A stretch of 64,000 nt of DNA from Spirochaetota bacterium (GCA_004297825.1 SCSX01000071.1:1-64000); one strand, 5' to 3'. Shown: positions 46,750 to 53,183, numbered from the stretch's first letter. Numbers and translations are program-made. The notes: a model not told the origin generated them from the sequence alone.

Positions 46750-47013
46750 GTGGAAGTACAATTAACGGACAAGGCCGTAAAGCAACTCGAGAAAATTGCG
46801 GTGGACAACAAAGCCGATGCCGCCCGGATTGTTGAAAAGACCGGAGGTTTTGCCGGCAATCCGAGGCGAAAGCATGATGTTAAAAAACTTAAAGGCCAAT
46901 TTGAAGAGCTGTTCCGGCTTAGGGTGGGCGACTACCGCGTTATTTTCACCATACAAGAAGACATAATGATCGTCGTCGGCATCAAGCGTCGCCAGGGGGC
47001 ATATAATGATTGA
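46750..47013 (+). CDS. RelE/ParE-family toxin
   Basis: An 87-residue protein starting with GTG, with no ribosome site upstream. The sequence VQLTDKAVKQLEKIAVDNKADAARIVEKT followed by KKLKGQFEELFRLRVGDYRVIFTI and IVVGIKRRQGAYND is the RelE fold; the Arg and Tyr residues in FRLRVGDYRVIF are those typical of ribosome-dependent mRNA cutting in this superfamily. It overlaps the antitoxin start by eight bases and comes first, the reverse of the usual order. Cytoplasmic. Confidence 0.85.
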   Translation: MEVQLTDKAVKQLEKIAVDNKADAARIVEKTGGFAGNPRRKHDVKKLKGQFEELFRLRVGDYRVIFTIQEDIMIVVGIKRRQGAYND

Positions 47014-48626: not shown

Positions 48627-48959
48627 AGTTGTATCCTCCTTGCGATTTTTTTTGCGCGAAGCGCTGCGCACGAACCTGCCGGCCGGATGCCTATGCGGTC
48701 TCCGGCGTATCGAACCGGGTATGGACACACACACTAATACCTGTATGATACCATGATCCGGTGCGAAGTCAAAACAAATATGCGCGCCGGCCTCCCGGTG
48801 AAAAAATATTGATTTTAAACCAAGCCGTTCTATATTGGTTTTCACACGCAGGAAGAGACGATTCCCTGTGTGCTCGTATCGGCCCCCGATCCCCCGGAAA
48901 GAATGGAAGGGGCGGGCTGCGCCGATACGCATGTCCGGCCGGGAGTGATGCGAGGCGCC

Positions 48960-49604
48960 ATGATCGTAACGAGCAAAAAGGATCCGCAGCAGGTGAAGGC
49001 GTACGCCGGAAACGCGAAGCGCCTCGTGATAATAGGCTGCTCCGAGTGCGCGGCCGTGTGCCGGACGGGCGGTTCCGAGCAGGTGAAGGAAATGGCCGAA
49101 CTTTTCGCCGACCGCGAGGTGCTCGCCACCATCTCGATCGAGTCCCCCTGCGACAAGCGGATCACCGCGCGCGACCTCAAGCGCATCGACGAGGAGATCG
49201 CCGGTGCGGACGCCGTCATCGCGCTCACCTGCGGGAGCGGCGTACAGGCCATCGCCGAGGTGACGGGCCGCGAGATTATCGCCGCGCTCGACACCCACTT
49301 CCTGGGCATGGTGGAGCGGCTGGGAAAATTCTACGAGCGCTGTTCGCACTGCGGGAGCTGCATCCTGAACGATACGGCGGGAATCTGCCCCGTCACCCGC
49401 TGTCCCAAGTCCATGCGCAACGGCCCCTGCGAGGGAATCCAGGACACGAAATGCGAGGTCTTCACGGACCGCGAGTGCGTATGGCACACGATCTACGAAA
49501 AGCTCAAAGAGCGCGGACAGCTGGAACGCTTCACTGTTTACCACGAGCCGGTCGACTGGTCGAAATGCATGAGTCCGCGGGAGGAACTATGGGAGCGCAG
49601 TTAG
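48960..49604 (+). CDS. metV: Methylene-tetrahydrofolate reductase C-terminal (MetV-type) cysteine-rich protein
   Basis: A 214-residue protein with the MTHFR_C domain of acetogenic methylenetetrahydrofolate reductases. The N-terminal half has GCSECAAVCRTGG. The C-terminal part is a dense cysteine cluster: ERCSHCGSCILNDTAGICP, then RCPKSMRNGPCEG and DTKCEVFTDRECVW, matching the iron-sulfur/zinc-binding MetV signature CxxCGxC...CP...NGPC. The start at 48960 (GAGG) is chosen; longer frames lack support. It overlaps the next gene by 16 bases, within a four-gene operon. Expected role is partner of MetF in methylene-THF reduction, perhaps passing electrons from ferredoxin. Cytoplasmic. Confidence 0.82.
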   Translation: MIVTSKKDPQQVKAYAGNAKRLVIIGCSECAAVCRTGGSEQVKEMAELFADREVLATISIESPCDKRITARDLKRIDEEIAGADAVIALTCGSGVQAIAEVTGREIIAALDTHFLGMVERLGKFYERCSHCGSCILNDTAGICPVTRCPKSMRNGPCEGIQDTKCEVFTDRECVWHTIYEKLKERGQLERFTVYHEPVDWSKCMSPREELWERS

Positions 49605-50134
49605 CCACGGTCGCTATCAAGTACCTCCCCGCCCTGAACGACATGGCCAGGGACCGCGAGATCATCGCGCGCGGCGCGGGACGCGGCGAAACGCTCCTCG
49701 TGGGGGAATACGGCATTCTCTCCCCCCTGGGCATGTTCCAGGAGCTGAAAAAAATTCACGCGGGCAAAATCTTCCTGGAACTCATCACCAGCACCAAGAA
49801 CCGCGACCTGGCGCGCTCGTTCCTGGCGACCGCCGCCGCCTCCGGGTTCGACGGCGTGGTGATCGCGACGGGCAAGCTTAATAAGGAAGACTACATGGCG
49901 CGCCCCGTCTACGACATCGATCCCACCCAGGTGCTCAAGATGGCCATCGACATGAAACAGGCGGGAACGCTCCCAAAAGGGTTCGCGATCGCGATCCGCA
50001 CCGCTTCGGGATGCTGCGCGGTGATCGAGCGCGCGCGCTATCTTGTCGACAACGGCGTTGAATTCCTCGCCGCACATGGGGAAAAGATGGAAGAATTCAA
50101 GAACCTCACCGTCCTCATCGAAGAAATCAAGTGA
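49589..50134 (+). CDS. Short MetF-like (half-barrel) protein
   Basis: A 181-residue protein beginning ATG after GGGAGG at 49589, overlapping metV. It resembles the middle of methylenetetrahydrofolate reductase: LLVGEYGILSPLGMFQELKK, FLELITSTKNRDLARSFLATAAASGFDGVVIATGKLN, then PVYDIDPTQVLKMAIDM, where the DRNR-type strand and the VxDxDxxQLL helix of MetF seem recognisable. Full MetF enzymes are ~290-310 residues; here the N- and C-terminal strands of the barrel are missing, yet the frame is intact with a proper start and stop. Whether it binds FAD is unknown. It may only work as part of the MetV complex. The assignment is tentative. Confidence 0.5.
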   Translation: MGAQLATVAIKYLPALNDMARDREIIARGAGRGETLLVGEYGILSPLGMFQELKKIHAGKIFLELITSTKNRDLARSFLATAAASGFDGVVIATGKLNKEDYMARPVYDIDPTQVLKMAIDMKQAGTLPKGFAIAIRTASGCCAVIERARYLVDNGVEFLAAHGEKMEEFKNLTVLIEEIK

Positions 50135-50165
50135 CGTTGGATACCCAGGAAAGACCGATGCGCCG

Positions 50166-52082
50166 ATGAACCAGCTTGCGGAAAATACCCCCGGGAAGGT
50201 GATCCTCGCCATGGGCAACGAGGCGGTCGTGCGCGGCGGCCTCGAGGCGGGGCTTGGATACTTTAGCACCTATCCCGGCACCCCCGCCTCCGAGATAGGG
50301 GTCGAGTACATGAAGCTCCGCGCGGAGTTCCCGCACATCCACGCGGAATTCAGCGTGAACGAGCACGTGGCCGCGCACGGCGCCCAGGGGGCCAGTTGGG
50401 CGGGGATCCGCTCGATGGTCACCATGAAGCACGTGGGCATGAACGTCGCCGCCGAGGTGCTCCATTTCGCGGGCTATACCGGTGTGAAGGCGGGCTTCCT
50501 GGTGGTGGTCGGGAGCGACCCGGGCGCCACGAGCTCCACGAGCGAGCAGGACGACCGCTGGTACTCCCTGCACACGCACCTTCCCATGCTGGAACCCGCG
50601 TCCATCCAGGAGGCAAAGGATTTCACCCTGCGCGCGTTCGCGCTCTCCGAAAAATACAACGTCCCCGTCGTCCTGAACGCGCCCAGCAAGCTCTGCCACA
50701 ATATCGGATCACTCGCGTTAGGCTCACTTCCTACCGATGTCGCGGTAAAGGGAAGGTTCGAGCGGAACCCCGTACGCTACATCAATCTCTTCGCGGGTTC
50801 GGTCGCTAATCACCGCAGGGTGATCGAGAGCGCGGCGGCACTGCAGGCGACCGCCCCGTCGCTGGGATTCAACCGTGTTTTCCCCGGTACAGGGAAGACA
50901 GGGTTTATCTCCTCGAGCATCAACTTCCAGTACCTCATGGAATCCCTCGCGCTTCTCGGCGTCACGGACGCGCCGGTTCTCAAGCTGGGGCTCACCTTTC
51001 CCATCAACGCGGACGAGGTGGCGTCCTTCGCGAATGGCCTCGAGAGAATCATCATCGTGGAGGACCTGGAGGGATTCGTCGAGTTCCAGGTCAAGAGGCT
51101 CCTGTATGACCGGAACGTACGGATCCCGATCAGGGGGAAGGAAATCTTTCCCGCGTACGGCGAGCTCGACCCCGATGTAATATCGGACCTCCTAGGCCGT
51201 GAGCTTTCAAAGCCGCTTCCCGCGCGCATCGGACGGGCACGGGAACTTTCGGGAAAACTCACGAAGGACCTCCCTCCGCGCCAGGGCGCGTTCTGTATCG
51301 GCTGCCCGCACCGCGCGACGCTCTACTCGATCGTAAAGGCGACGGACCGGAAGGTGATCTTCGCCGGGGATATTGGCTGCTACACGCTCTCGTGCCTCCC
51401 GCCCTTCCGCGCGTTCGACTGGGTCACGTGCATGAATTGCGGCGTAGGGATCGCGCAGGGCATGCTCCAGAAGATCGAGGGCGAGGACGTGATCGCCTAC
51501 GTGGGCGACTCGACGTTTTTCCATTCGGGAATTCCCGGGCTCATTAACGCCGTGCAGCAGAATGCGGACATGGTGCTCGTGATCCTCGACAACAAGTGGG
51601 TCGCGATGACCGGCCACCAGCCCAGCCCCACCACGGATGTCGCGATCGACGGATCGAAGATGAAGCCGGTGGACCTCAAGGGGCTTCTCAAATCCATAGG
51701 CGTTTCGTACGTCCGGACCGTCAATCCCTTCAACATAAAGGCCTCGACCGCGGCCGTGAAGGACGCCCTTCGCGTGAAAAAGGGGGTGCGCGTCGTTATC
51801 GCCGAACAGGAATGCGCTTTGCAGCACGGGCGCCGCGTTGCACGCAATCCGTACGATTTCGAGGAATATCACCAGATCGACCCGGGGCGCTGCCAGAAAT
51901 GCAACGAGTGCTACATCGAACTGGGCTGCCCGGCGATACGAAGAAAGGATTCGGGCGCCGATTATTACTATTACATCGAGGAGACGGCCTGCCTGGACTG
52001 CGGCGCGTGCCGCGACCTCTGCCCCAACGGCGCGATCGTACGCACCGAGATTCGGCGCATGAATAAGGCGGCGGCGAAATGA
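50166..52082 (+). CDS. iorA: Indolepyruvate:ferredoxin oxidoreductase alpha subunit
   Basis: A 638-residue enzyme subunit; start at 50166. It turns aryl pyruvates (or other 2-oxoacids) into acyl-CoA with reduced ferredoxin. The N-terminal pyrimidine domain has GNEAVVRGGLEAGLGYFSTYPGTPASEIG. The TPP domain shows GDIGCYTLS, CMNCGVGIAQGM and VGDSTFFHSGIPGLINAVQQ with LVILDN. The C-terminus is a two-cluster ferredoxin: CQKCNECYIELGCPAI and CLDCGACRDLCPNGAI. It is the third gene of the metV operon (31 bases after the MetF-like gene) and overlaps iorB. Oxygen-sensitive; cytoplasmic. Confidence 0.93.
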   Translation: MNQLAENTPGKVILAMGNEAVVRGGLEAGLGYFSTYPGTPASEIGVEYMKLRAEFPHIHAEFSVNEHVAAHGAQGASWAGIRSMVTMKHVGMNVAAEVLHFAGYTGVKAGFLVVVGSDPGATSSTSEQDDRWYSLHTHLPMLEPASIQEAKDFTLRAFALSEKYNVPVVLNAPSKLCHNIGSLALGSLPTDVAVKGRFERNPVRYINLFAGSVANHRRVIESAAALQATAPSLGFNRVFPGTGKTGFISSSINFQYLMESLALLGVTDAPVLKLGLTFPINADEVASFANGLERIIIVEDLEGFVEFQVKRLLYDRNVRIPIRGKEIFPAYGELDPDVISDLLGRELSKPLPARIGRARELSGKLTKDLPPRQGAFCIGCPHRATLYSIVKATDRKVIFAGDIGCYTLSCLPPFRAFDWVTCMNCGVGIAQGMLQKIEGEDVIAYVGDSTFFHSGIPGLINAVQQNADMVLVILDNKWVAMTGHQPSPTTDVAIDGSKMKPVDLKGLLKSIGVSYVRTVNPFNIKASTAAVKDALRVKKGVRVVIAEQECALQHGRRVARNPYDFEEYHQIDPGRCQKCNECYIELGCPAIRRKDSGADYYYYIEETACLDCGACRDLCPNGAIVRTEIRRMNKAAAK

Positions 52083-52714
52083 TCCGCTACGATATTCTCA
52101 TCTGCGGGATCGGCGGCCAGGGGGCGATCACCCTGGGCACCGCGCTCAAGCTCGCGGCGATCCGCGCCGGCCTCGCGGTCGTGGGTGCCGAGCGCCGTGG
52201 CGGGGCCCAGCGCGAAGGCGTCGTAACGAGCAACGTGCGTTATATTGGAACCATGCCAGGCGATTCCCCGAACGAGCGGGCATTCGAGGTGTCGGGACTC
52301 ATCCCCACCGCCGGGGCCGATATGCTCATCGCGATGGAGCCGCTCGAGGCGCTGAGACACGCGCACTTTCTGCATAAGGATTCGGTCGTGATCGTGAATG
52401 ACTTTCCCCTCATCCCCGTTTCGGTGCGCAACGGCGATTCCGTCTACCCACCGGTTGAATCGATCTACGCACGACTGAGGGAGTTCACGCCCCGCGTGCA
52501 CGTTTTCAACCTTGATGAAATTTCCCGGGAGCATTTCCAGTCCTTGAGACAGGTCAATACCATCTCGATGGGGCTCGCATTTGCGCTGGGCAGCCTTCCC
52601 GTGCCGCGCGAAGCGCTGCTGGAAACGATCAGGGAACAGTTTCCGGATTTCGCGAAGAATTCGCGTGCGTTCAACCTGGGTGCGGAGCTCGCTGCTAAGG
52701 GATCTGGTCGATAA
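52079..52714 (+). CDS. iorB: Indolepyruvate:ferredoxin oxidoreductase beta subunit
   Basis: A 211-residue partner of IorA, of the 2-oxoacid:acceptor oxidoreductase gamma/CoA-binding family. It opens ILICGIGGQGAITLGTALKLAA, with RGGAQREG a few residues on, then GADMLIAMEPLEALRHAHFL. The start overlaps the iorA stop (ATGA), so the subunits are made in equal amounts. The 3' end overlaps the oppositely oriented gene at 52695 by 20 bases. IorAB is usually found in anaerobes and archaea, so it supports an anaerobic or facultative lifestyle. Confidence 0.93.
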   Translation: MIRYDILICGIGGQGAITLGTALKLAAIRAGLAVVGAERRGGAQREGVVTSNVRYIGTMPGDSPNERAFEVSGLIPTAGADMLIAMEPLEALRHAHFLHKDSVVIVNDFPLIPVSVRNGDSVYPPVESIYARLREFTPRVHVFNLDEISREHFQSLRQVNTISMGLAFALGSLPVPREALLETIREQFPDFAKNSRAFNLGAELAAKGSGR

Positions 52715-53183
52715 GGAGTCTGGTCGGAGTTGCCATGGGTGGCGTTTTCCCTCCTTTTCCCCAGCAAATCATCCAGCAAAACGCACTTTGAGTATCTTGA
52801 AATGCTAAGATATAATTGGTGAACCGATAGTTATGGGTGAATTTTTTTATAGCATGGCGTTTCCCAGGTTTTCGTTTCAGGATTAAATACTTTTCGATGG
52901 CCCAGACGACGATAAACGAAACAGACTCCTTTAAAAACTTCCTTGCATCGGTAACCCACTCGTAGTCCCGTTCGTTAAGACACACGCTCATCGCGGACCG
53001 AACCCCCGGCATAGTTCGCTCCTGGTATCGCACCGGCACGAATCCCGCTGCGTTCCCGGCCCGCTCCTGCATCGCGCCCTGTATCAGATTCCTGACAAGC
53101 CAGCTCCGGGGAATTCCCACCGATTTCGCCAGCTCGGTAAGGAGCTTCCGATACCTCAAGCTGATGTTTATAGTCGTTTCCAT
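52695..53183 (-). CDS. Uncharacterised small protein, copy 2 of a two-copy family
   Basis: A 162-residue protein with GGGAGG before its ATG. No named family. The N-terminal ~40 residues (TINISLRYRKLLTELAKSVG, then WLVRNLIQGAMQ) look like a ribbon-helix-helix: a beta strand and two helices. The middle aligns to the gene at 5212: FVPVRYQERT against FTLVKYQPRD, DYEWVTDARKFLKESVSFIV against ENELVSDFRKLGRFSVSYLV, HNYRFTNYILAF against HNYAKFSHYAIG, and CWMICWGK against CWELYWGD. The final 20 residues are read through the end of the convergent iorB gene. Possibly a DNA-binding regulator. Confidence 0.75.
   Translation of the reverse strand: METTINISLRYRKLLTELAKSVGIPRSWLVRNLIQGAMQERAGNAAGFVPVRYQERTMPGVRSAMSVCLNERDYEWVTDARKFLKESVSFIVVWAIEKYLILKRKPGKRHAIKKFTHNYRFTNYILAFQDTQSAFCWMICWGKGGKTPPMATPTRLLIDQIP

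Follow-up and report, generated by a model that had tools for sequence, protein, structure and literature searches.

What does a MetV-type protein do when its gene is joined to a shortened metF-like gene and to the two genes of an indolepyruvate ferredoxin oxidoreductase (IOR)-type enzyme? MetV-type subunits are the electron arms of the methylenetetrahydrofolate (methylene-THF) reductases of acetogens; how these enzymes are wired, and from what they draw electrons, is still a matter of debate. The question is raised by a locus in a Spirochaetota genome, within the 64,000-nucleotide stretch that was analyzed here (the window; GCA_004297825.1, SCSX01000071.1:1-64000). The initial annotation took the four genes for one transcription unit and suggested that in it IorAB is coupled, directly or through shared ferredoxin, to the reduction of methylene-THF during the fermentation of aryl amino acids. 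The idea of one electron-transfer unit holds up, with its gene order conserved; the folate chemistry fares less well, for reasons given below.

The four genes form one compact unit on the plus strand of the window, and both their boundaries and their spacing were confirmed as first described. They are metV (48960-49604, 214 aa), the short metF-like gene, whose product we call sMetF (49589-50134, 181 aa), iorA (50166-52082, 638 aa), and iorB (52079-52714, 211 aa); metV and sMetF overlap by 16 bases, a gap of 31 bases separates sMetF from iorA, and iorA and iorB overlap by 4 bases. Profile, fold and model matches uphold the four gene identities. Weak signals, matches to consensus only, lie on either side on the same strand: four promoter-like matches at 48722-48836, 5' of metV, against a shuffled mean of 1.5 in a consensus scan, and a terminator-like hairpin with a T-rich tail right after iorB (52729-52752). 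An alternative GTG start for metV is open at 48870, and the alignment of its relatives begins at MIVT. Elsewhere in the window, an 87-aa open reading frame (46750-47013, plus strand) resembles RelE/ParE-type toxins by eye.

The arrangement is not peculiar to this genome, as the order metV, sMetF, iorA, iorB recurs in 11 of the 393 Spirochaetota genomes sampled; one ground on which the initial annotation was to be refuted, a gene order limited to this genome, therefore does not apply. Searching these 393 genomes with an sMetF profile gave strong matches in 11 (216-260 bits) and then nothing above 34 bits, the weaker matches that are listed falling in frames as long as a full-length MetF (288-365 aa). 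An IorA search of the phylum found 11 genomes with a protein 66-79% identical to that of the window, the others being at most 41% identical among the matches listed, and the 11 genomes with sMetF are the same 11 that have the cassette-type IorA. All belong to three families (f1, f6 and f7) of a single order, and the named records that carry the cassette are uncultured Spirochaetota MAGs. Across the 46 genomes sampled from this order, MetV in the three families always lies within the cassette, except for one at a contig end (G158), and the sister families f3 and f5 hold up to four MetV, mostly adjoining a full-length MetF of the acetogen type. Among the MetV genes of sister families, those at L055, L077 and L078 had no full-length MetF found adjoining. 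A search of plasmids for sMetF gave no match, and a contig scan with a single peptide pattern, which is a weak test, saw no cassette outside the Spirochaetota. The genes flanking the cassette are not the same from family to family, so the four genes stay together as their surroundings change; for the same reason we rejected the proposal that the operon is part of a larger conserved metabolic cluster. The same order between different flanks in 10 other genomes, together with a dN/dS of 0.18-0.32 for sMetF among close pairs, argues that the four-gene unit is not a product of chance.

The least familiar of the four proteins is sMetF. Searched against Pfam, NCBIfam and the sequences of the PDB it returned only noise and no match of its own, with no PF02219 match at E ≤ 1 and the curated cut-off of that family not reached. 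Its ancestry becomes visible in profiles and models: a profile of 10 sMetFs aligns, over residues 59-161, with that of full MetF at an E value of 1e-10 (hhalign, profile-profile), and the AlphaFold2 model (pLDDT 88, pTM 0.85, seven strands) finds methylene-THF reductases (MTHFRs) as its top solved matches in a Foldseek search of the PDB, with a VIA-align Z of 13.8 against E. coli MTHFR and all of the best 18 matches being MTHFRs. These comparisons show sMetF to be a distant derivative of MetF; it has both the sequence homology and the MTHFR barrel fold, the latter in contracted form. A frameshifted or assembly-broken metF was considered and rejected, as the gene is similarly short in 11 genomes and has the low dN/dS given above, and sMetF is under purifying selection. 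It also evolves faster than its neighbors, with a mean identity among relatives of 42% against 67-73% for the adjacent genes, which could mean that its role is peripheral. sMetF defines a previously unannotated protein family.

The residues that remain were compared at the 54 positions that are invariant in 16 full MetVF-type MetFs. Only 10 of these are kept in sMetF, while 23 are changed and 21 are missing; among the survivors are an N-R pair, a VxDxD motif and several glycines. Pterin binding in MTHFR involves Asp120 and Gln183 (PMC11094777; for residue roles see also PMC3156243). The GD containing the Asp120 equivalent has become G followed by K, N, A, L, I or S in all aligned sMetFs, the Gln183 equivalent is changed or deleted in all of them, and the C-terminal part of MetF is reduced to one strand. 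Flavin binding by sMetF is a guess on our part, since the N-R pair and VxDxD motif are kept but the two invariant MetF lysines, K174 and K175, are not. The evidence on the catalytic glutamate is in conflict. In a sequence-only alignment the invariant Glu40 of sMetF stands opposite the catalytic Glu of MetF (the Glu28 equivalent, which lies where strand 1 ends), whereas the structure alignment, taken from its range only (sMetF 6-181 on E. coli 22-277), implies that strand 1 is formed by residues 9-13, which hold no Glu, and that Glu40 terminates strand 2. With the Asp120 and Gln183 equivalents and the C-terminal part lost and the data on the catalytic Glu in conflict, sMetF is not callable as a canonical MTHFR; a residual or altered activity may persist.

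MetV has kept its cysteines. It consists of an N-terminal alpha/beta domain with a GCxxCAxxC motif and a C-terminal PF12225 (MTHFR_C) domain in which cysteines are conserved (116.8 bits, 3.4e-34), and a fold search with its model gave no informative match. In known MTHFRs MetV bears Fe-S clusters, and MetVF pairs with varied electron modules such as RnfC2 and HdrABC-MvhD (PMC9430772, PMC8515935). The unit resembles these acetogen enzymes, whether two-subunit, RnfC2 or HdrABC-MvhD types, in having metV immediately 5' of a gene derived from metF and in keeping the Fe-S/Zn cysteines common to MetVF-type MetV. It differs from them in that the MetF partner is of some 180 aa and lacks the folate-site residues, metV has no full-length metF partner, and the linked module is an IOR rather than RnfC2 or Hdr. 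MetV itself also differs: where the MetV of Clostridium ljungdahlii is described with the motif NGPCGG, it retains the NGPC and has lost the following GG, and the cassette MetVs form one clade (support 99/100) on a long branch.

IorA comprises POR_N and TPP_enzyme_C domains and a C-terminal 2x[4Fe-4S] ferredoxin domain, and retains the TPP motif and both 4Fe-4S motifs (8-Cys). IorB is of the IOR beta family, with a PF01558 match of 1.2e-28. The two subunits share their two-subunit organization, TPP motif and C-terminal ferredoxin domain with indolepyruvate ferredoxin oxidoreductase, but both fall under the equivalog cut-offs (IorA 587 against 650.9 bits for TIGR03336 IOR_alpha, IorB 132 against 205.8 bits for TIGR03334 IOR_beta), they are linked to metV and sMetF, and the N-terminal domains of the cassette IorAs have residue changes in common (NEHVA in place of NEKVA, SDPG in place of DDPG). 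At no more than 41% identity among the matches listed, the cassette IorA also stands apart from the other IorAs of the phylum. The POR_N, TPP_enzyme_C and POR domains, with the TPP and 8-Cys motifs, fit the IOR-like branch of the 2-oxoacid oxidoreductase superfamily, and we class IorAB as a divergent IOR-type enzyme. The genome encodes a second IorAB (L083:1702-3850, G000 C73), without the ferredoxin domain, which adjoins a PaaK-like (phenylacetate-CoA-ligase-like) ligase and a protein recognized by eye as ACT-like. An IOR beside such an ACT-like protein and PaaK-like ligase is a usual setting for aryl-pyruvate use, and the second IOR is the better candidate for these substrates than the cassette IorAB.

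We put at about even the chance that the four genes specify a single multi-subunit enzyme, a divergent 2-oxoacid:acceptor oxidoreductase whose dedicated MetV-sMetF electron arm has a disabled folate site. IorAB, with its thiamine diphosphate and two [4Fe-4S] clusters, would oxidize a 2-oxoacid to an acyl-CoA, or run in reverse, and MetV, through its Fe-S and zinc cysteines, would dock on IorAB as a dedicated electron carrier. Having lost its folate-binding residues, sMetF would act as the partner of MetV, either as an adaptor or as a flavin relay passing electrons on (or in), so that the linked electron module here would be the IOR and the C1 end of MetVF would be lost. The overlapping or near-abutting genes and their shared order in 11 genomes with varying flanks support such an arm, as do the restriction of MetV to the cassette in the three families (but for the one at a contig end), the single clade of cassette MetVs, the lost folate residues of sMetF, the cysteines kept in MetV and IorA, and the variety of electron modules with which MetVF works elsewhere. 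Conserved operons can also encode proteins of the same pathway that never come into contact, and we infer the association of the four proteins in a complex, along with the flavin of sMetF, the way in which electrons run, the 2-oxoacid and the terminal acceptor.

A bolder, and unlikely, version holds that the four proteins constitute a new enzyme class, in which MetV would carry electrons from 2-oxoacid oxidation directly, with no soluble ferredoxin, to a flavin housed in an MTHFR barrel turned to new use. This barrel might then reduce a C1 carrier, its active site rebuilt around Glu40 as the replacement acid, or some other acceptor, possibly with electron bifurcation.

The coupling first proposed, spelled out here as one in which a ferredoxin-linked or directly 2-oxoacid-driven methylene-THF reductase would pass electrons from IorAB through MetV to an sMetF flavin for the Wood-Ljungdahl pathway, is best weighed against the genome as a whole. 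The window's genome encodes CODH, an acetyl-CoA synthase fused to a CdhD domain, FTHFS, and a separate corrinoid protein large subunit with its activator. Its only MetV is that of the cassette, and no normal metF-metV pair was found elsewhere in it, so a folate role of the operon may remain. The initial annotation had suggested looking for a full-length metF elsewhere, and one is there, of E. coli type (FAD/NADH MTHFR; the PF02219 match lies only on C84), although not as a metF-metV pair. AcsB matches above 170 bits occur in 8 of the 12 genomes of the cassette families with MetV, and as the cassette is found largely in genomes with CODH/ACS, a C1 role may likewise remain. Also in favor, the sequence-only alignment sets Glu40 opposite the catalytic Glu, the flavin-independent MTHFR (Mfr) has a Glu in place of Asp120 (PMC11094777), MetV does partner MTHFR elsewhere, and the cassette clade, which has CODH/ACS, lacks a MetVF pair. 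Against this stand the lost pterin residues and C-terminal part, the position at the end of strand 2 that the range of the structure alignment implies for Glu40, and the E. coli-type MetF, a stand-alone protein with complete barrel and catalytic residues that has the fold of sMetF, is among its closest solved structures, and is present in all cassette genomes save one assembly that is 76% complete. Nor is the cassette strictly tied to the CODH/ACS pathway, since G050 (95% complete) carries it with no AcsB match detected and G202 (80% complete) has AcsB and no MetV. The lost folate site, the separate MetF and G050 together leave direct methylene-THF reduction by the operon unsupported, and we judge this reading improbable.

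Several features of these genomes were recorded alongside. AcsB-CdhD fusions of 1159-1180 aa are encoded at L081:9429-12971 (G000 C21) and L149:8206-11685 (G112), and AcsB frames span 1085-1207 aa in the cassette families and 735-789 aa in the sister families. In G042, G107, G097 and G135 the PF02219 matches fall inside open frames that measure 606-619 aa and may represent fusions of MetF with a further domain. A 353-aa protein without Pfam match is encoded next to the CODH/ACS genes in G112 (L149:4360-5421), and a similar protein (MEIQYAEGMPRAVIDTG...) is encoded at L148:52-969 (G166).

It is similarly doubtful that MetV-sMetF lies outside the electron path and instead helps to assemble or regulate IorAB, by inserting clusters or as a ligand-binding sensor that gates the enzyme. 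The fast-evolving sMetF keeps its invariant residues at strand ends and the loops that follow, by the strand order of the model, and phylum genomes with other IORs have no sMetF, both of which would suit such a factor, but the highly conserved redox/metal cysteines of MetV fit electron transfer better. That the cassette MetV serves the stand-alone E. coli-type MetF, with sMetF a relic of its original partner that is now decaying, would suit the one MetF of this type and one MetV in the window's genome and in most cassette relatives, but is very hard to credit when sMetF is retained under purifying selection in 11 of 11 genomes and the same MetF type occurs in related non-cassette families without MetV.

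Literature searches pairing MetV with IorA or indolepyruvate, or with a truncated MetF, turned up no account of the unit. The one incidental link is an indolepyruvate oxidoreductase named among proteins that contaminated, though not consistently, purified Sporomusa MetVF (PMC9430772), an observation that we do not count as evidence. The unit appears to be a new arrangement for electron transfer, not the folate-reducing system of the initial annotation. The electron-arm reading predicts that sMetF binds MetV, perhaps a flavin too, and no folate, and the cassette suggests that MetV-MetF may be usable as a portable electron-transfer module beyond folate chemistry.
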